DNA of 48,397 bases, taken from contig JAQVBU010000015.1 of assembly GCA_028690155.1 (NCBI GenBank), forward strand, positions 1-48,397, written 5' to 3'. The position numbers and the translations under genes were made by a program. The DNA is from Alphaproteobacteria bacterium (lineage in GTDB: Bacteria; Pseudomonadota; Alphaproteobacteria; UBA9219). Of the stretch, positions 35,686 to 48,397 are shown one piece after another (position 1 is the stretch's first letter; each line of letters begins with the position of its first letter). The notes below the pieces were generated by a model. The model ran no database searches and was not told the DNA's origin. It saw only the letters and a program-made list of their open reading frames with translations.

Positions 35686-36025
35686 TCGAATCTCCTAATG
35701 GGAGGGCTGGATCGTTCACGACATCCTTGAGGATGGCCTCACTGACTTCGGGATAAATACTAAACGCGTCTTTGAGGTAGGCCAATTCGTTGAGTTTGTT
35801 TTTCAACCCGACGATTAAGGCTTCCCACCACCCCTTGTACCCTGTCATCTGTTTCGTGATCTCGCCGTGACGGTGACAGGCGATCACAAAGTCGAGTTCT
35901 CCCGCAAGCAGGACATCGGAGAGGAGCTTGATCCTGTTCGCGGTAGGCTCCACGCCGAGGTATTGACAGATCGTTGCTGCGGTACGTCTGCGGCGCGCAG
36001 GGGGTAGTTCCGGGCGTTCGCTCAT
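35654..36025 (-). CDS. Early protein of unknown function
   Basis: A 123-aa protein, helical, with a very basic start (PPARRRRTAATICQYLGV) and an acidic end (GDSNDVPVAKEND). It is translationally coupled (ATGA) to the methyltransferase gene upstream. It could be a DNA-binding accessory protein, but no family is recognised. Confidence 0.55.
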   Translation of the reverse strand: MSERPELPPARRRRTAATICQYLGVEPTANRIKLLSDVLLAGELDFVIACHRHGEITKQMTGYKGWWEALIVGLKNKLNELAYLKDAFSIYPEVSEAILKDVVNDPALPLGDSNDVPVAKEND

Positions 36026-36672
36026 CCGATTAAATCCTCTTCATCGAAAGTTGCTGGATTGAACTTTTCACGTTCGTTGCCCCATGTTGTCCATTTTGGT
36101 CGGGCTTGCCGCGCAAACAGTTCGAGGTACGGCCCTTCCACGAGGGCTTCGATTCGCTCGAAGATTTCATCCGGCTTACGGCTGTGTTCGCGTCGCGGGG
36201 CCATGATGAGCTTCGGTACGTTCATCGCTTGGCGTTTCGGATGACCCTGCGCGCCAAGGAGAAGCTGCGACCCTTCATCTAGGTTTGTGAGGACTTGTTC
36301 AGGGTTTGCGCGAGTCCAGAAGCCCATGCCGGTGAACGGTGTCTTACCGTCTTGGTTGAGCTTCACCCAATAGAATCCGACTGTCTTGTAGTCGAAGCCC
36401 CACGCCTTCATCATGTCGATGCCTTTGAAAAGCATCGGATCGGTGATCCACATGAACAGGACGCAATCTTTCGCGGCGAGGTCTTTCACAGGGAGCGCGG
36501 CGATCTCGTCGAGCGACATCGTGCCGTAATGTTTTTCCGCGCTACGACCACCGCCCTTTGCCGACCGGATCGCAAAAGCCCACGGCGGATCGGCCAGAAT
36601 GGCTTTGTAGTGATTTCGCAATAAACCTTTGAACGGGCCGCTTGTAATCAGGCGGCTCTTAAACTCAACCAT
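36022..36672 (-). CDS. MT-A70-family adenine-N6 DNA methyltransferase
   Basis: A 216-aa enzyme expected to transfer a methyl group from S-adenosylmethionine to adenine. The catalytic DPPW is at residues 28-31, followed by an MT-A70-type body (KHYGTMSLDEIAALPV, FMWITDPMLFKG, PRREHSRKPDEIFERIE). It is MT-A70-type, not CcrM-like. Two oddities: the first 12 residues nearly match the start of the adjacent nuclease gene, and the C-terminus is the shared acidic EEDLIG peptide. Overlaps the upstream gene by 25 nt. Confidence 0.9.
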   Translation of the reverse strand: MVEFKSRLITSGPFKGLLRNHYKAILADPPWAFAIRSAKGGGRSAEKHYGTMSLDEIAALPVKDLAAKDCVLFMWITDPMLFKGIDMMKAWGFDYKTVGFYWVKLNQDGKTPFTGMGFWTRANPEQVLTNLDEGSQLLLGAQGHPKRQAMNVPKLIMAPRREHSRKPDEIFERIEALVEGPYLELFARQARPKWTTWGNEREKFNPATFDEEDLIG

Positions 36673-39910: not shown

Positions 39911-40116
39911 CAACGCCTCCCGTTCACCTTCTTGAGAACAACGGAATCCTTTCGATCCAGCATCAACCCGATGGCTATCAGGATCAGCCAGAACGGAACG
40001 ATGAGAACCGCGTAGGCGAAGAACTCCAACAGGCACATCTCTTCGTCGTGGGTATTAAGGAACCAGACGAGAGAAAAAATACCCGCTATAAAATAAGAGA
40101 CGACAAAGGGGTTCAT
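39904..40116 (-). CDS. Small two-span membrane protein
   Basis: A 70-aa protein from ATG 40116 (ATGA overlap with the deaminase gene). Two hydrophobic helices (FVVSYFIAGIFSLVWFL and LLEFFAYAVLIVPFWLILIAIGLML) flank a short acidic loop (NTHDEEMC); the C-terminus is basic. Function unknown. Confidence 0.6.
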   Translation of the reverse strand: MNPFVVSYFIAGIFSLVWFLNTHDEEMCLLEFFAYAVLIVPFWLILIAIGLMLDRKDSVVLKKVNGRRWW

Positions 40117-40559
40117 GCTAATGCCTTCACACGCGGGTAGTAATCCGCTTGAACTTCCGCCTCCAAAAACAGGCGGATCGCTAGGCTTTGACTCCCGTAC
40201 CACGCTGACTCTTGGATCAGGCTCGGTGCGACAACCCGTTTGATTCCCGCCTGAATGATGTGAACGGCACACCGGGCGCATGGTGCATACGGCCAGACGT
40301 ACAGGGTAAAGCCGGAGAGATCACATCGGGCAAAGAGAAGCGCGTTCATCTCCGCATGGATCATCATCTCGTTTTTAAGATCGCGGTCTTTCAAACGAAA
40401 ATCATCATCTTCGATTCCGACAGGGAACCCGTTGAACCCTTCCGAGACGGCATGGTGTCGTGCGTCCACGATCACCGCACCGACCTTCGTGTTCGGGTCT
40501 TTCGAATAGCCCGCTAGTTCCTTCGCCCGATCAATAAATCGTTCGTCCCACTTGTCCAT
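40113..40559 (-). CDS. dCMP/cytidine deaminase-family enzyme
   Basis: A 148-aa zinc deaminase likely converting dCMP to dUMP for thymidylate synthesis. The active-site motifs are HAE at residues 68-70 and PCARC at 93-97. The start ATG 40559 has GAGGGTGTG upstream and an overlap with the previous stop; the longer frame to 40634 is out of register with gene packing. Sits in the same operon as MazG and DUF3310, suggesting nucleotide-pool control. Confidence 0.9.
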   Translation of the reverse strand: MDKWDERFIDRAKELAGYSKDPNTKVGAVIVDARHHAVSEGFNGFPVGIEDDDFRLKDRDLKNEMMIHAEMNALLFARCDLSGFTLYVWPYAPCARCAVHIIQAGIKRVVAPSLIQESAWYGSQSLAIRLFLEAEVQADYYPRVKALA

Positions 40560-40762
40560 CACACCCTCGCGTGAAAGTCGTCGGCGAGTTCTTCTGCGGT
40601 CGGGACGTGGCAACGCAGGATCGGCGCGTAGCACTTCACGAAATCACGAGCGGAATCCAAGATCACCTGATCGTACAGAACTTTCGATGGTATCTTTTCG
40701 ATCTGGATTCCGTGGTCGTGGTTGAAGAAAAGGTCGGAGAGGATGGGGTTGACGTTAGACAT
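40559..40762 (-). CDS. Early protein of unknown function
   Basis: A 67-aa protein with GGAGGAGGGAA directly before ATG 40762. Mixed alpha/beta with a C-terminal acidic helix (PTAEELADDFHARV). Coupled to the deaminase gene (TGATG). No family recognised. Confidence 0.55.
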   Translation of the reverse strand: MSNVNPILSDLFFNHDHGIQIEKIPSKVLYDQVILDSARDFVKCYAPILRCHVPTAEELADDFHARV

Positions 40763-42741: not shown

Positions 42742-43003
42742 TGCCGCCCGCCTTTCTTTCGCAATTGAAAAAGAGACTCACGGAGTCGGCATTCACTAAG
42801 ACTCGGTATTCCTGAAAAAGTTTTTCAGGCGTGAGTCCCTTGGCATTGGCGAGTCCGATTAGAGTCCTATATCCCGCCCGCAATTCGGGAGTCCATTCGG
42901 CGCGGGGGTAGCATTCCCGCGCTATGGCTTGCGGGCTTCCCGTGTTGTCTGCCATGTTGCGCCCGCCGTCATTTAGAATCTCGACTCCGAATTGTTTAGA
43001 CAT
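42734..43003 (-). CDS. Right-module protein of unknown function
   Basis: An 89-aa protein from ATG 43003, chosen because GAGGAGTCGG lies 5-12 nt upstream and it overlaps the preceding stop by 8 nt. The second ATG at 42955 is possible. The helical second half (TPELRAGYRTLIGLANAKGL) has no known motif. Confidence 0.55.
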   Translation of the reverse strand: MSKQFGVEILNDGGRNMADNTGSPQAIARECYPRAEWTPELRAGYRTLIGLANAKGLTPEKLFQEYRVLVNADSVSLFFNCERKAGGNG

Positions 43004-44300
43004 TTTCCGACTCCTCTTGTTTGGGTTGCTCTTGATCCCGCCCGCATTCCTTATCAAGCAAGGCATTCATGCGGGCAACGGATTCAGGATTCGCCGTTGC
43101 CGCCGTGTATTCACTAGAAAGGCAATCGAAAAGGCCATTCCCGCGCTTATCGCTTAACCGTTCATAAAGCGGCGAGTCGAATCCATACAGTGAGTCCGCC
43201 TCGATTCCGTGTTGCCTTAGCTTGGCAAGAATCAAAGTTTCTACTTGGTTATGATCCCACGCTTTCGGGCGGGCTTGCATAATCCATTGATTCAGGTCAT
43301 TTGGATAAAAAGAATTGAATCCATCCCGTGACGTGAATCGCTCTTTCACAATATCAGCAAGAATCTTTTTGTCTGTTGCCCGATAGAGTGAGTCGACAAC
43401 GGCGGGCGCGATAAAGCAAAAGATTCGATCCGTTGTAAAATTGTATTCGCGCGGGCTTGTCATCGACTCGAATTGTAAGCCTAAATCGAATCCCGTTTCC
43501 TCTTTGAACCATTCCGAAAATGATTCAGCGTATGCCTTGGCTATATCGTCGCGCAATGCTGAAAAGTCTTGAACGTCATAAACAAGCCCCGCCAATTCGT
43601 CGCGCTCTTCCATGTTCAAATTATCGGCGGAGTCCGTGATATAGAATAAACTCGACTCGGCCAATTCCGAAAAGATTGACTCGTAAAATCCGGCGAAAGG
43701 AATGACGGTTAAGCGCAAGGCGGGCGGGCATTGCTCTTTTTTCGGTTCAAGATTCGCACCGACAAGAAAAACGTTTTCGGCGGGCTTGCCGTATGCGCCA
43801 CTAGTCACGGGTTGCCCTTGGCTTTCAGCGAGGCAAGCGAGGGAAAAATTAGAATCGCGTTTTGATTCTTTCTCTGATTCTGTCTTTGTCATAGCGTGAG
43901 TCCTTTCCTGTTTTGTTACTTGCCGCCGAGTCGGTATTCCCGCCCCCGATACATGCAAAGCGATAGGCCATCCGCGCGGGTCACTTTGAATCCGCAAGAA
44001 AACGCCTTTCCTTTTTTCGTTTACGTCACGAGTCGACTCGATTCCATGCAAGGCGCAAAGGTTGATTAGTCTTTCCTCTTTTCGATCCGTTGCGGCTTCA
44101 TACCTTGCCGTGTGAGTCCCGTCTTTATCCCATGGGAATCCGTTGCAAAGGTTTTCGAATCGCGTATGCAATGCCGCGCCCTGTTTTTGCAATTGATCGA
44201 CAAGGGGCAACACTTCCCCGAAAATATCAAGACTCGGCATTGCCTCGCTTATCGCTTTCGCCGCCGCTCTTTTGCTTTCCTCAATATGCGCTTTCGTCAT
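42996..44300 (-). CDS. Two-module right-region protein (in-frame fusion)
   Basis: A 434-aa ORF starting at ATG 44300 with the repeated leader GAAAGGACTCAC. The N-terminal module (1-about 128) is helical. Residues about 129-136 (TKQERTHA) are the translation of another copy of the same leader, followed by Met137 at 43892. The C-terminal module (137-434) contains an alpha/beta region with SPREYNFTTDRIFCFIA and DLNQWIMQARPKAW. Either one fusion protein or two proteins (full length and 298-aa internal) may be made. No function recognised. Confidence 0.65.
   Translation of the reverse strand: MTKAHIEESKRAAAKAISEAMPSLDIFGEVLPLVDQLQKQGAALHTRFENLCNGFPWDKDGTHTARYEAATDRKEERLINLCALHGIESTRDVNEKRKGVFLRIQSDPRGWPIALHVSGAGIPTRRQVTKQERTHAMTKTESEKESKRDSNFSLACLAESQGQPVTSGAYGKPAENVFLVGANLEPKKEQCPPALRLTVIPFAGFYESIFSELAESSLFYITDSADNLNMEERDELAGLVYDVQDFSALRDDIAKAYAESFSEWFKEETGFDLGLQFESMTSPREYNFTTDRIFCFIAPAVVDSLYRATDKKILADIVKERFTSRDGFNSFYPNDLNQWIMQARPKAWDHNQVETLILAKLRQHGIEADSLYGFDSPLYERLSDKRGNGLFDCLSSEYTAATANPESVARMNALLDKECGRDQEQPKQEESENV
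43003..43892 (-). other. Possible internal translation product of the fused ORF
   Basis: ATG 43892 is preceded in frame by the module's standard start leader (AAAGGACTCACGCT), the same as in front of the independent genes at 45218, 46025, 46872 and 47328. This makes initiation at residue 137 likely. The product ends with the same stop as the 434-aa ORF at 42996. It could mean that the upstream gene recently lost its stop codon. Confidence 0.55.
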
Positions 44301-44983: not shown

Positions 44984-45218
44984 TGTCGACTCCACTGTCA
45001 CGGATTGCCGCGAGTAAATCGCAAGCCTCTTGCAAAGCCTGATTCACGTCATCGGCTCTTTCCCATTTTCCGCGCTCTAAATCCACGGCGGCAATCAAAG
45101 CGGAAAGTTTCCCGCGCAATTCATGCGCCCGCATTGATTCCGCCAAGTCGATCAAAGAATCCGTTTCAAGTATGGCGCGGATTCCGTTTTCGGTGTTTTC
45201 GATTCTTCCCGTTTTCAT
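44970..45218 (-). CDS. Right-module helical protein of unknown function
   Basis: An 82-aa protein at ATG 45218 with the repeated leader GGAAGGACTCACGCT. Predicted helical throughout (LIDLAESMRAHELRGKLSAL, QALQEACDLLAAI), with acidic ends. No family recognised. Confidence 0.58.
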   Translation of the reverse strand: MKTGRIENTENGIRAILETDSLIDLAESMRAHELRGKLSALIAAVDLERGKWERADDVNQALQEACDLLAAIRDSGVDNEND

Positions 45219-45248
45219 AGCGTGAGTCCTTCCCTGTTTAGTGTTGCA

Positions 45249-46025
45249 TTAGTCCGATTCCAATTCGGCAAGCCTTGCCGCTTTCTCGCTTTCTTCATTC
45301 TTGAGTCGCGCAAGTTTTTCATTCACTGCCCGCAAAATCGGGGCGGGCATTGTGTCTTTGTTGGCGTTAAAACATTCCAAAAGATTCGCATAATCGGCGG
45401 CAATCAAAGAAAGCGAATCCCGTACCTCTTCCCGCTCTACTGTTGCGGCATGATCCGCGATTCCTCGCGCCTCTTCCAATGCGCCGCCCTCGCGGTCATA
45501 ATCCCCGAAAAAGCCCCAAACGGATTCAACATCGCGCCCCTCTTTGTCTGTCACTTCAAAGCCCCAAACGTTGCCGCTTGCATAATCGTTTAACGCTTCC
45601 ACGGCGGACTCGAATTGCGCGGTATGCCAAGACTCCACCGTTTCCCCGTCATGAAGAATCGACTCAATATAAGAATCGGTTAAGCCAAGCGACTCGCGCT
45701 TTTCTGGAGTCCAGTAAATGAAGCCCGCAAAGCCTGAATCGAATGCGTCCGAAAATTGCCCGCTTGCCGTTAGGCTGAATGCAATTCCTGAATGGATATA
45801 AACCCGCAAAGGGCGGAAAATATAACCGCGCTCTTTCGCCTTTTCTAAAAAGGATTCGGGATCATCCGCCGCCGTGTTTTTGTTTGTTGTAAAATCGTAA
45901 GAGCGTAACCATGTTACAACGTCCGGCAATCCGTCTTGATCCGTGAAAGGATTCAAGGGGTCATCATCCGACAAGATTCGGATAATATGGCCGCGCCTTG
46001 TTTCTTTGTGTGATTCGTAGGTCAT
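45249..46025 (-). CDS. Right-module protein, conserved in mobile elements
   Basis: A 258-aa protein at ATG 46025 with the leader GAAAGGACTCACGCT. The central part, FDSGFAGFIYWTPEKRE, then ESAVEALNDYASGNVWGFEV and SVWGFFGDYD, resembles a hypothetical protein family found on phages and plasmids. No function is established. The C-terminal third is a helix with heptad features (ARLKNEESEKAARLAELES). Confidence 0.65.
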   Translation of the reverse strand: MTYESHKETRRGHIIRILSDDDPLNPFTDQDGLPDVVTWLRSYDFTTNKNTAADDPESFLEKAKERGYIFRPLRVYIHSGIAFSLTASGQFSDAFDSGFAGFIYWTPEKRESLGLTDSYIESILHDGETVESWHTAQFESAVEALNDYASGNVWGFEVTDKEGRDVESVWGFFGDYDREGGALEEARGIADHAATVEREEVRDSLSLIAADYANLLECFNANKDTMPAPILRAVNEKLARLKNEESEKAARLAELESD

Positions 46026-46058
46026 AGCGTGAGTCCTTTCAAGTTATCAACTAGCGGA

Positions 46059-46259
46059 TTATGCCTTTTGTGCGACTAACACAATCTCGCCGCTAGGGGT
46101 TACATAATGCGCCCTATCTCTTGCAACGTCATATTGTGGCGCAAGATTAGGCGGCAAGAATCCGGCAACGTGCAACGCTTGAATCGCGTCATTCGCGGGG
46201 GTTATCGCTTCCCGTACCGTTTCACCATTCAGCATTGCGAAAACATAAAACCTTTTCAT
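46059..46259 (-). CDS. Right-module protein of unknown function
   Basis: A 66-aa protein from ATG 46259 (GGAAAGGGACAAA upstream), about 39 nt downstream of a strong promoter. Small alpha/beta domain (RFYVFAMLNGETVREAI... HYVTPSGEIVLVA). No family recognised. As the first gene after this promoter it may be produced early. Confidence 0.58.
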   Translation of the reverse strand: MKRFYVFAMLNGETVREAITPANDAIQALHVAGFLPPNLAPQYDVARDRAHYVTPSGEIVLVAQKA

Positions 46260-46297
46260 TTTGTCCCTTTCCTTTCTCTTACTCTTTCCATTTTTCA

Positions 46298-46330
46298 ATT
46301 ATAGCATACTAGGGGTTAAGAACAAGTTAA
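46298..46330 (-). promoter_or_regulatory. Promoter with CtrA-type box (site P46)
   Basis: On the minus strand: TTAA-N7-TTAA (46316-46330), then 12 nt, then -10 TATAAT (46298-46303) in the extended context TGCTATAAT. The box covers the -35 region, as in CtrA-activated alphaproteobacterial promoters, and GCTATAAT fits the -10 type used by their housekeeping sigma. A palindrome AGTTAACAACT (46325-46335) overlaps the upstream half. Confidence 0.72.
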
Positions 46331-46345
46331 CAACTAAAAATTGTT

Positions 46346-46672
46346 TTATCGTTTGTCTGATTCCCCGTCTTTTCGTGTGTTTTCTGTTTTTCTGGTCTTG
46401 TCTGTTGCTTGCCGGATTGTTTGGGCAAGGGTTGCGACAATATCAGGGCGGCGCGGCGCGTCTGTCACGGCGGGCGGCGCGAGATTCAAAAGGGAAAGTT
46501 TTTTAATCAGCGGCAAGCGGGCGAAAATGTTAAGGGCTTCCCGCTCTTGCGCCTTGGCATTCGTGCAAGCGAGACTCGCCGCCTCTTTGTTGCGGGCTTG
46601 CTCTTGCCGCTTTTGAAGGCTTAGGCGGGCGCGGGTTGCCGGATTGCCGGAGTCATCCTTTGGGCGGTTCAT
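46346..46672 (-). CDS. Right-module basic helical protein
   Basis: A 108-aa protein, ATGA-coupled to the gene at 46669. It is Arg/Lys/Ala-rich and helical with RLSLQKRQEQARNKEAAS and a charged C-terminus (TRKTENTRKDGESDKR). Could bind nucleic acid; no family recognised. It ends just before promoter P46. Confidence 0.55.
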   Translation of the reverse strand: MNRPKDDSGNPATRARLSLQKRQEQARNKEAASLACTNAKAQEREALNIFARLPLIKKLSLLNLAPPAVTDAPRRPDIVATLAQTIRQATDKTRKTENTRKDGESDKR

Positions 46673-46872
46673 AGCTTGCCCCCGTGAATGGTTTTAACAA
46701 GGGCGCGGAATGCCGCGCTTTTCAAGTGGTACGCATGGGCAAGGGCGAGGGTTAGGGGGCTTCCCTGCCCCTCTTGCGCCAGCGTGAGGGCATAGGCGCG
46801 GCGCGTTGCCCCCAATGATGACAAGAGCAACAGGGCGAGGCTTTGGGCTTGTTCTAAATCTTGCGGGTTCAT
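46669..46872 (-). CDS. Right-module helical protein of unknown function
   Basis: A 67-aa protein at ATG 46872 with the leader GGAAGGACTCACGCT. It is Leu/Ala-rich and helical (LEQAQSLALLLLSSLGATRRA). Membrane insertion is possible but the helices look amphipathic. Function unknown. Confidence 0.55.
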   Translation of the reverse strand: MNPQDLEQAQSLALLLLSSLGATRRAYALTLAQEGQGSPLTLALAHAYHLKSAAFRALVKTIHGGKL

Positions 46873-46899
46873 AGCGTGAGTCCTTCCAATGCTTAGGGG

Positions 46900-47328
46900 T
46901 TAAAGGGATTCGTATTCATGGGGCGAAAGATACGAGCCAAGGGGCGGCAAGGCGTGACCAAGGGCGGGCGCGTTGAGTCGTACCTTTTGCCCATTACTTA
47001 GGGTTGCCCCCATGCCGCCCGCTTTCAGGTTATAGACTGCCCGCACAAAGGGGGCAGGGGCGGGCATGTGATAGGACTCGGCTTGGCTTTCAGGGATTGC
47101 GGAAAGAGCAAGGCGGGCGGCATGGGCGGCGCGGGTTGCGGTAAAGAATGCGCCGATTAAGACGGGGTTTTCTTTTTTCAGATTAAGGCAATAATAAAAC
47201 CCACGCGCCAGCTTGCCGCCTTTTCCATCCGCCCTAACGTGTTTCCCTTTTTCGCCGCTTGCATAAATGACGGCAAAGAGGAATCGCCCCGATACAGATT
47301 CGAATCGTTTGTAAGGTTGAGTCGTCAT
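46900..47328 (-). CDS. Right-module protein of unknown function
   Basis: A 142-aa protein at ATG 47328 with the leader GGAAGGACTCACGCT. Mixed alpha/beta, basic, with GRFLFAVIYASGEKGKHV, then GAFFTATRAAHAARLALSA and a C-terminal SNGQKVRLNAPALGHALPP. No family recognised. Confidence 0.58.
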   Translation of the reverse strand: MTTQPYKRFESVSGRFLFAVIYASGEKGKHVRADGKGGKLARGFYYCLNLKKENPVLIGAFFTATRAAHAARLALSAIPESQAESYHMPAPAPFVRAVYNLKAGGMGATLSNGQKVRLNAPALGHALPPLGSYLSPHEYESL

Positions 47329-47352
47329 AGCGTGAGTCCTTCCTGTTGTCGG

Positions 47353-47538
47353 TTAGGTGCAATATCCAAAGCCCGCGAGGCTTTCGCGCAAGACTTTCAA
47401 TTCGGCGGCTTCACGCGCCGCAACCCGTTCAAAATAACCATGCGTAGGGCGGGCAGTGAATGAATCAAAATCAATAGGGCGGGCGAGGGTCTTAATCATG
47501 CCCGCTAATTCTTTGTTTTGTGCAATCGCTTCAAACAT
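47353..47538 (-). CDS. First gene of the right-hand operon, unknown function
   Basis: A 61-aa protein at ATG 47538 with a variant leader (AAAAAGGACTCGGTT). It has two helices (IAQNKELAGMIKTLA and VAAREAAELKVLRESLA) around a short loop with PIDFDSFTARPTHGYF. It is the gene nearest to the operator array, so a regulatory role is conceivable, but no helix-turn-helix is evident. Confidence 0.55.
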   Translation of the reverse strand: MFEAIAQNKELAGMIKTLARPIDFDSFTARPTHGYFERVAAREAAELKVLRESLAGFGYCT

Positions 47539-47589
47539 AACCGAGTCCTTTTTCTTGTGTTACCCTTTAGACCAATTCCCGATTATTCA

Positions 47590-47622
47590 AGTATAACATA
47601 AAAGGGATTAAGATTTAGTTAT
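47590..47622 (-). promoter_or_regulatory. Promoter with near-CtrA box (site P47)
   Basis: Minus strand: ATAA-N7-TTAA (47608-47622; one mismatch to the box), 12 nt, then -10 TATACT (47590-47595), again preceded by TG one base before (extended -10). It aligns over about 45 nt with P46, with the same spacing. It lies 52 nt upstream of ATG 47538 and should drive the right-hand operon. Confidence 0.7.
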
Positions 47623-47718
47623 CAACCTGATTCTTTTTCTTTGTTTCATACTATGCAAGCGCAATGCCAAAAGCGGCATGTTGAATCTGTTGATTCTTTT
47701 TACTTGGCGGGGGTGTAG

Positions 47719-47737
47719 CTAGGCAATTCTTGCCTAG
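47719..47737. promoter_or_regulatory. Operator-like palindrome 1
   Basis: CTAGGCAATTCTTGCCTAG, a perfect 8-bp-arm palindrome around TTC. It is the first of three 19-bp sites at 47719, 47741 and 47762, so centres are 22 and 21 bp apart (about two helical turns). Confidence 0.75.
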
Positions 47738-47740
47738 TAA

Positions 47741-47759
47741 CTAGGAATCTTTTGCCTAG
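47741..47759. promoter_or_regulatory. Operator-like palindrome 2 (degenerate left half)
   Basis: CTAGGAATCTTTTGCCTAG. The right half matches sites 1 and 3; the left half is altered and contains a GANTC site (GAATC). A weaker middle site flanked by two perfect sites recalls graded operator arrays. Confidence 0.68.
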
Positions 47760-47761
47760 TG

Positions 47762-47780
47762 CTAGGCAATTCTTGCCTAG
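47762..47780. promoter_or_regulatory. Operator-like palindrome 3
   Basis: Identical to site 1 over all 19 bases. The three sites lie on one helix face, upstream of the leftward operon promoter P47. Confidence 0.75.
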
Positions 47781-47897
47781 TTAGGGCGGATCATGGGCAG
47801 GGGCTAGGCTTGCCGTCTGTATGCGCCAGCATGGGGCGAGTCCGTGTGTAGGGGGTGCGATTTAACATAATACCAGAACAAAGGGGCAACGATAGGA

Positions 47898-47912
47898 TTA
47901 AGCCCTTGTTAA
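47898..47912. promoter_or_regulatory. CtrA-type box in repeat copy 1
   Basis: TTAA-GCCCTTG-TTAA, followed by C as in the full CtrA consensus (TTAA-N7-TTAAC). A GAGTC site lies 5 nt past it on the plus strand. Confidence 0.65.
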
Positions 47913-48114
47913 CATTGAGTCGCATTGTCGCATAAGACTCGGTTAACCAATTATGAAGGGCATAAGGGGGCGGGCTTGTCTGTTGCCCCGTTGTTACGGG
48001 GTGCAAGGGGGGCGCGTAACAGGGGGATAACAGGGGCAGGGCATGACGGGGGCAGGGGGCAAGGGCAGGGCTTGCGACTTAACATAATAAAAGAACAAAA
48101 GGGGAATAATTGGG

Positions 48115-48129
48115 TTAAGCCTTTGTTAA
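48115..48129. promoter_or_regulatory. CtrA-type box in repeat copy 2
   Basis: TTAA-GCCTTTG-TTAA, at the same relative position as in copy 1. All four boxes (with P46 and P47) share the wider form TTAAG-N5-GTTA on the plus strand. Confidence 0.65.
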
Positions 48130-48241
48130 GTATAGGGGGGCGTTGTCGCATAACTTCACGTTAACCGATTATCAGGCGGGGCATAGGGGGGCAGGGGGGC
48201 AGGGCATAGGATAGGGCAGGGGATAAGGCAACAAAGAGTTG

Positions 48242-48256
48242 TTAACTATGGGTTAG
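48242..48256. promoter_or_regulatory. Near-match CtrA-type box at the right end
   Basis: TTAA-CTATGGG-TTAG, one mismatch. It overlaps the start of an AGTTGGCAAGATAA word (48255-48268). Another such word, AGTTGACAAGATTA, is at 48295-48308. Confidence 0.45.
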
Positions 48257-48397
48257 TTGGCAAGATAAAACATTCTTTTATGTAAGGTCTAATAAGTTGA
48301 CAAGATTAACTACAATTTGAATCAAATGCCAGCTAAATGTTGGCCGTTCGCTCAAGGTACTTGCCGGTGTTTGGGCACTCCGGGGGGTGCGCGGAGC

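Follow-up and report, generated by a model that had tools for sequence, protein, structure and literature searches.

Clusters of binding sites for the host regulator CtrA have been described in phage genomes by Mascolo et al. (2022), who report for three phages that CtrA binds the sites and that reporter activity depends on CtrA (PMC9437464). At least five independent origins are inferred there, and the authors put forward lytic deferment, the hypothesis that lysis is delayed until the state of the host changes (PMC9437464). Their low-positional-entropy phages (LPEG) include the phiCbK-like phages, Brevundimonas phage vB_BsubS-Delta, Sphingomonas phage MMDA13 and the Rhizobium phages Palo and Pasto, and a gp005 promoter fragment of phiCbK was CtrA-dependent (PMC9437464). 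Here, we analyse a phage contig of 48,397 nucleotides (JAQVBU010000015.1 of assembly GCA_028690155.1; hereafter the window) with a dense group of predicted CtrA boxes at its right end. We consider it likely that the last 2.1 kb of the window are a control region that reads CtrA, in which the host protein would occupy the clustered sites and thereby activate the leftward genes.

As in the LPEG phages, the sites of this alphaproteobacterium-linked phage are concentrated and fall for the most part between genes; they occupy a gap or terminal repeat that is flanked by small genes without known function, and vB_BsubS-Delta likewise has a gap of about 1.3 kb (PMC9437464). In contrast to these phages, the present one has three perfect sites (the vB_BsubS-Delta gap has 12), and its boxes lie partly in repeats 217 bp apart (PMC9437464). 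It is also Casjensviridae-like and linked to an organism that has not been cultured, and its sites are predicted from the sequence. The Ruegeria phages DSS3-P1, V7, V11, V16 and V18, listed as LPEG in the same text, belong to the same broad group (50.6% terminase identity) and have an alphaproteobacterial host; however, their predicted sites are low-scoring, and their concentration is due to three sites within one gene (PMC9437464). The arrangement also resembles the Caulobacter pilA promoter, which has a CtrA box ‘at the -35 position’ and additional upstream boxes that delay and reduce expression (PMC11264516). That promoter belongs to a bacterial gene and has its extra boxes within about 150 bp, whereas here they lie about 290 and 507 bp upstream of the nearest driving box (PMC11264516). 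Infection by Rhodobacter phage Jorvik depends on the CtrA of its host, and a putative CtrA site lies between two operons of this phage; Jorvik is, however, unrelated, contains a membrane and has just this one putative site (PMC10589892). A search of the literature library at hand found no paper joining CtrA with Casjensviridae. The strategy itself is already published, and the present phage is a fresh case of it, in which the predicted intergenic sites are stronger than the published chi-like ones. If this interpretation is correct, phage control by host CtrA would extend to an uncultured alphaproteobacterial order, the chi-like phages, for which the published examples are weak, would gain one with a strong cluster between genes, and the trait would have one more apparently independent origin.

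CtrA-box sites and their clustering

The perfect pattern TTAA-N7-TTAA occurs exactly three times in the window, at 46316-46330, 47898-47912 and 48115-48129. These are the positions given in a preliminary description of this DNA, and all three fall in the last 2.1 kb, so that the left half holds no perfect copy, as had also been surmised there. The same 2.1 kb contain 10 of the window's 15 sites with at most one mismatch; seven of these ten have one mismatch (47183, 47608, 47932, 47943, 48150, 48242 and 48306), and the preliminary description had recognised two of them, 47608 and 48242, and missed the other five. All three perfect sites and six of the seven one-mismatch sites lie outside gene models, among them the five sites originally named as non-coding; only 47183 is intragenic. 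The perfect sites are on the minus strand, while the one-mismatch sites at 48242..48256 and 48306..48320 are on the plus strand.

The significant feature is the concentration of these sites, not their total number. Whole-window shuffles gave 0.45 expected perfect sites and reached at least three in 2 of 100 cases, which makes the bare count only mildly unusual; the earlier expectation of a perfect site well under once per genome was somewhat overstated. With one mismatch allowed, 15 sites compare with 10.05 expected, a total reached in 8 of 100 shuffles and not significant, so the supposed excess over shuffled sequence holds for the local clustering and not for the whole-window total. Within 46298-48256, an interval set around the sites by the preliminary description and hence post hoc, three perfect sites were seen against 0.095 expected in dinucleotide shuffles, and none of 5000 shuffles reached three. 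For the wider stretches 46298-48397 and 45001-48397, 2 of 5000 shuffles each reached the observed perfect count, and the two perfect sites of 47539-48397 alone were matched in 6 of 5000. If one mismatch is allowed, the ten sites of the last 2.1 kb compare with 1.66 expected (0 of 1000 local shuffles), and when the 15 sites were placed uniformly at random, ten never fell within one 2.1-kb span (0 of 5000 placements). Unevenness was thus measured by pattern counts and placements on an incomplete contig, whereas the LPEG authors use a position-specific scoring matrix and an entropy threshold of H < 0.75.

By chance alone, an AT-richer gene-free stretch and a single duplication could have made such a cluster. 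The sites at 47898 and 48115 do sit in copies of one direct repeat (81% identity over 63 nt) and are therefore not independent, which leaves two of the three perfect sites as repeat copies, and Salmonella phage Chi carries three perfect sites as well. Set against this are the shuffles of both the interval 46298-48256 and the last 2.1 kb, the specificity of the spacing (three matches of TTAA-Nk-TTAA at k=7 and none to two at each other k from 0 to 30; none or one for each of 11 other 4-bp palindromes at N7) and two sites outside the repeats with an exactly placed -10. We regard a chance origin as very improbable.

Promoters, repeat units and a proposed mechanism

Two of the boxes have the geometry of CtrA-activated promoters, with a predicted box over the -35 followed by a -10, both on the minus strand. 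At P2, the perfect box TTAAC-N6-TTAAC (46316..46330) precedes the -10 hexamer TATAAT (46298..46303), the whole reading GTTAACTTGTTCTTAACCCCTAGTATGCTATAATTGA; at P1, the one-mismatch box ATAAC-N6-TTAAT (47608..47622), found by pattern search and aligned with P2, precedes TATACT (47590..47595) and reads GATAACTAAATCTTAATCCCTTTTATGTTATACTTGA. The gap between box and -10 is exactly 12 nt in both, as the preliminary description had stated for a TATAAT-type element, and the two promoters align closely (GTTG-N-TAACT-N3-TCTTAA-N-CCCT-N2-TATG-N-TATA-N-TTGAA). A consensus scan that requires a TTGACA-like hexamer called no promoter at P1 or P2; a good -10 without a -35 resembles an activator-dependent promoter. 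A purine-rich leader and then a start codon follow each promoter, at 46259 for P2 and at 47538 for P1. The first gene after P2 (46059..46259, minus strand) encodes 66 amino acids without a Pfam family, with an ATG after AAAGGAAAGGG that was our choice of start codon, the listed TTG start at 46298 overlapping the -10. The first gene after P1 (47353..47538, minus strand) encodes 61 amino acids, likewise without a family. Further leftward gene models lie at 46900-47328, 46669-46872, 46346-46672 and 45249-46025; none of them has an assigned function, and the last corresponds to phrog_6186. If these genes (45249..47328) form an operon, they would be served by P1 and P2. Two matching promoters with equal spacing from box to -10 would also make a compact test case.

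Based on this geometry, we propose the following hypothetical sequence of events, in which (i) phosphorylated host CtrA (CtrA~P) would bind the head-to-tail TTAAC-N6-TTAAY boxes; (ii) at P1 (47608) and P2 (46316), it would occupy the place of the -35 and recruit RNA polymerase to the -10; and (iii) this recruitment would switch on the leftward genes, which extend from 47538 to 45249 or beyond. At 47898 and 48115, no -10 is seen at activating distance from the perfect box, and we read these upstream boxes as modulators rather than activators. Their more probable role would be cooperative loading of CtrA, or else a delay or repression of expression, by analogy with the extra upstream boxes of Caulobacter pilA (PMC11264516).

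These upstream boxes belong to an 859-bp stretch without any accepted gene (47539..48397, reaching the contig end; the short open reading frames listed there were rejected). It contains two direct repeats of about 105 bp, offset by 217-218 bp, and in each of them the perfect site is accompanied by a near-site at a distance of 34-35 bp. Repeat unit 1 (47850..47954) holds the perfect box 47898-47912 and the one-mismatch site 47932-47946, while a further one-mismatch site, 47943-47957, extends beyond the unit; repeat unit 2 (48067..48172) holds the perfect box 48115-48129, which reads TTAAC-N6-TTAAC, and the one-mismatch site 48150-48164. The blocks TTAACATAATA, TTGTCGCATAA and GTTAACC-N-ATTAT are conserved between the units. 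Conserved direct repeats free of accepted genes and set in G-rich surroundings could also be the replication origin of the phage, with the TTAA dyads acting there as iterons or melting elements and only P1 and P2 as CtrA promoters. However, a DnaA-like box (TTATNCACA) was not found in the region, and the dyads keep the exact CtrA spacing; we therefore hold this alternative to be unlikely. A related idea concerns the Caulobacter chromosomal origin, which is controlled by CtrA. By analogy, the repeat unit, with its paired predicted CtrA sites 34-35 bp apart and TTGTCGCATAA, might be a phage origin that copies this logic, CtrA holding off replication while activating the leftward genes. We consider this speculative and rather improbable; if it were true, one host signal would set both phage replication and gene expression.

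As separate observations on the repeats, TTGTCGCATAA is exact at 47925-47935 and 48143-48153 though the units have otherwise diverged. A link to SciP and its motif TGTCGCG through TTGTCGCATAA was considered and dropped: this exact word does not occur in the region, and no paper on the combination turned up in a literature search.

Host, genus background and related phages

The window is a whole contig of genome bin G000 (2.10 Mb, 43 contigs, 99.4% complete). The CckA-like kinase of this bin shares 76-80% identity with proteins of several metagenome-assembled genomes, mostly titled Alphaproteobacteria bacterium. It scores 751 bits against one CckA model and 499 against another, below their curated cut-offs of 1000, and 339 against the best non-CckA model. 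Together with the presence of CtrA in genus and order mates, the identity of this kinase to those proteins supports the assignment of the bin to the Alphaproteobacteria, which the preliminary description had presupposed for the host. At E <= 1e-40, ctrA was found in all 10 genus mates searched (10 of 11 genus genomes including G000), in two of them as contig-end pieces and in a neighbourhood that varies among the mates; the full-length matches are 71-72% identical to the query. CtrA orthologues occur at the same threshold in 30 of 34 genomes of the order, and CtrA was found in 55 of 76 genomes sampled from the class.

The box itself is enriched in the genus. TTAAC-N6-TTAAC has 112 matches in the 11 genus genomes compared with 37 for the reversed pattern, self-overlapping places being counted twice, and 10 of the 11 genomes exceed their own reversed control, the exception being G022 (7 versus 11). 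G000 has nine matches at eight places, two of them on the phage contig. Thirty of the 112 matches were available as loci, and 27 loci gave 31 site rows, 27 of them distinct and one the phage's own. Ten genes downstream of such boxes were picked by eye because they looked recognisable, and by Pfam they encode three flagellar rod proteins, two proteins with prepilin or PilS domains, three phaR-type regulators (of which G000 has one), one citrate synthase and one protein with DUF4402. CtrA is known for the control of flagella and pili, and boxes before flagellar and prepilin genes fit a CtrA box for this reason.

The contig is a Casjensviridae-like (chi-like) phage, as judged from its large terminase subunit (TerL) and gene order on a truncated contig. 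The closest named terminases are those of Synechococcus virus S-ESS1 (57.6%), Achromobacter phage AchV4 (51.7%) and Ruegeria phage DSS3-P1 (50.6%), and all ten named TerL relatives whose taxonomy was read, these three among them, are filed under Casjensviridae. The order SNF2 helicase, small terminase subunit (TerS), TerL and portal is the same as in S-ESS1. The preliminary description had proposed looking for the boxes in related phages, and a comparable cluster was found in none of six Casjensviridae records, compared piece by piece, four of them with alphaproteobacterial hosts. DSS3-P1, pCB2051-A, RHph_X2_30, RcPutin and S-ESS1 have no perfect and zero to five one-mismatch sites (DSS3-P1 has one), never two within 2.1 kb. 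Among 12 records searched, perfect sites occur only in Chi (three; reversed control two) and phiCbK (six; control none). All six phiCbK boxes lie inside the terminal repeats, one of them upstream of gp005, with TAGGGT, AGGGTC or TATGGT found by eye 11-12 nt after, which makes for a weak comparison. Of the TerL relatives in IMG/VR, 2 of 30 records have one perfect site each, compared with eight for the reversed pattern, and 70 portal loci (1.006 Mb) contain no perfect site and five matches of AATT-N7-AATT. One of these 70 loci, L356 (G+C 0.44), has four one-mismatch sites in 2.1 kb. A closer relative by its portal, with 76% identity, is the phage of IMGVR_UViG_3300038675_000229. The TerL and portal loci share some contigs, and these stretches hold mainly structural genes; their counts are a low background, and since few of the fragments likely cover a control region, absence from control regions does not follow. 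The exact promoter pattern had no match across viral_contigs, where the right-end proteins 45249-46025, 46900-47328 and 42996-44300 also had no confirmed relative. In named phages, 45249-46025 matches seven records and 42996-44300 matches three, all weakly and partially. The trait so far looks private to the lineage of this phage, although the relatives' control regions are mostly uncovered.

Several observations weigh against a CtrA-driven control region. No ctrA was found in the readable sequence of G000, where the best match to a CtrA query has 31% identity; one sampled stretch is without readable bases, and the absence may reflect a gap or a loss. PF06627 (DUF1153), which we take to be the SciP family, likewise had no match in the readable sequence of this bin, while it is present in 10 of the 11 genus genomes, among them all ten mates. 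With two genes missing, loss or misbinning is conceivable. Among the 27 distinct genus rows, a -10 matching at all six positions 12 nt from the box occurs only at the phage's own site. For 7 of the 10 picked genus genes, a distance of 1-20 nt separates the box from the start codon taken (that of the longest frame), which is too short for activation of that start; these seven may be repressor sites, or the true starts may lie further downstream. Chi, whose host to our knowledge lacks CtrA, has as many perfect sites as the window, but spread over about 19 kb; with nine sites in all and at most three per 2.1 kb, its distribution is matched by 1067 of 5000 random placements. No relative with a comparable control region was found in the records searched. 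The place of the contig in G000 rests on binning, so that infection of this organism by the phage is presumed, and the tetranucleotide likeness is modest (r = 0.40 to the host stretches, 0.23-0.45 to six genus mates and 0.11-0.35 to six other phages).

The missing ctrA bears on two alternatives. The contig may be misbinned, its true host being another alphaproteobacterium with CtrA. No close phage relatives were found in the host order, where the other terminase matches have at most 35% identity, and the right-end protein 45249-46025 has, apart from its own genome, a match in just one of the 34 genomes, at 32% identity; the absence of ctrA and PF06627 from the bin points the same way. On the other side, the G+C content of the contig (0.536) is close to that of 19 host stretches (0.547), and the tetranucleotide correlation to them is the r = 0.40 given above. 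The genus boxes close to starts and the missing PF06627 slightly lower the probability of the CtrA-driven control region and slightly raise that of misbinning, which we nevertheless rate as low, albeit not negligible. Alternatively, the boxes may be bound by another OmpR-type or a phage-encoded regulator, with the TTAA dyads as its operators. A DNA-binding domain of the OmpR type is present in three further proteins of G000, which we judge not to be CtrA, two of them being read as ChvI-like and PetR-like, and the roughly one fifth of a 60-kb chi-like genome that would be missing from the contig could encode a regulator. In contrast, no DNA-binding family was found in ten leftward-block proteins (Pfam, E <= 0.1), and the box is overrepresented in the genus genomes, where some copies stand ahead of flagellar and prepilin genes, as fits CtrA. 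Both the dyad and the spacing of its halves match the published CtrA consensus (PMC9437464, PMC11264516). Another regulator at these boxes thus appears quite unlikely, and host CtrA remains the preferred candidate.

With CtrA as the candidate, the phage probably reads the developmental state of its host. The signal may be the cell-cycle stage or the motile or piliated state, and the latter is at least as likely because some genus boxes precede flagellar rod, prepilin and phaR genes. Chi uses flagella as its receptor, which fits a signal of the motile or piliated state. Mascolo et al. call Chivirus flagellotropic (PMC9437464). The earlier suggestion that the phage may time its right-hand operon to the host cell cycle is thus partly backed, by the alphaproteobacterial bin, the clustering and the promoter geometry. 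The idea is not new (PMC9437464), and a signal from motility or pili is no less probable than one from the cell cycle.

Gene content and minor features

On the plus strand, the contig encodes from left to right an SNF2 helicase, TerS (DUF1441), TerL (gpA type), a lambda-type portal, an S49 protease, a tape measure protein and tail genes, and to the right of these follow small genes, mainly leftward, which include an MT-A70 methylase and a dCMP deaminase. The genes for the MT-A70-type DNA methylase and the dCMP deaminase lie in the leftward block at 36022-36672 and 40113-40634. The window tRNA scan and the Rfam scan (gathering threshold) were empty. The SNF2 helicase gene (1-1488) is apparently cut by the contig start, so that part of the phage genome is lacking at this end. 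Upstream of the helicase, S-ESS1 carries genes annotated as polymerase and primase, and the relative L290 has more open frames there. Because the genomes of the nearest terminase relatives are about 60 kb, roughly 10 kb (about a fifth) would be missing from the contig.

The whole-genome count for G000 (40 places versus 24 for the reversed pattern) was not relied on, since three contigs contribute an identical word to it that is probably a repeat. This word, TTAATGAGGGCTTAA, occurs in L003, L004 and C34 of G000, perhaps as one mobile repeat carrying a CtrA-like box.

Upstream of P1, three tandem near-palindromes (two copies of CTAGGCAATTCTTGCCTAG and one variant, 21-22 bp apart) occupy 47718-47781 and look like candidate phage-repressor operators. 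A 16-nt word, AAGGACTCACGCTATG, which combines a ribosome-binding site with a start codon, occurs on the minus strand at 43890, 45216, 46023, 46870 and 47326. Four of these five copies stand at the starts of right-end gene models, and the word includes GACTC, a GANTC site.

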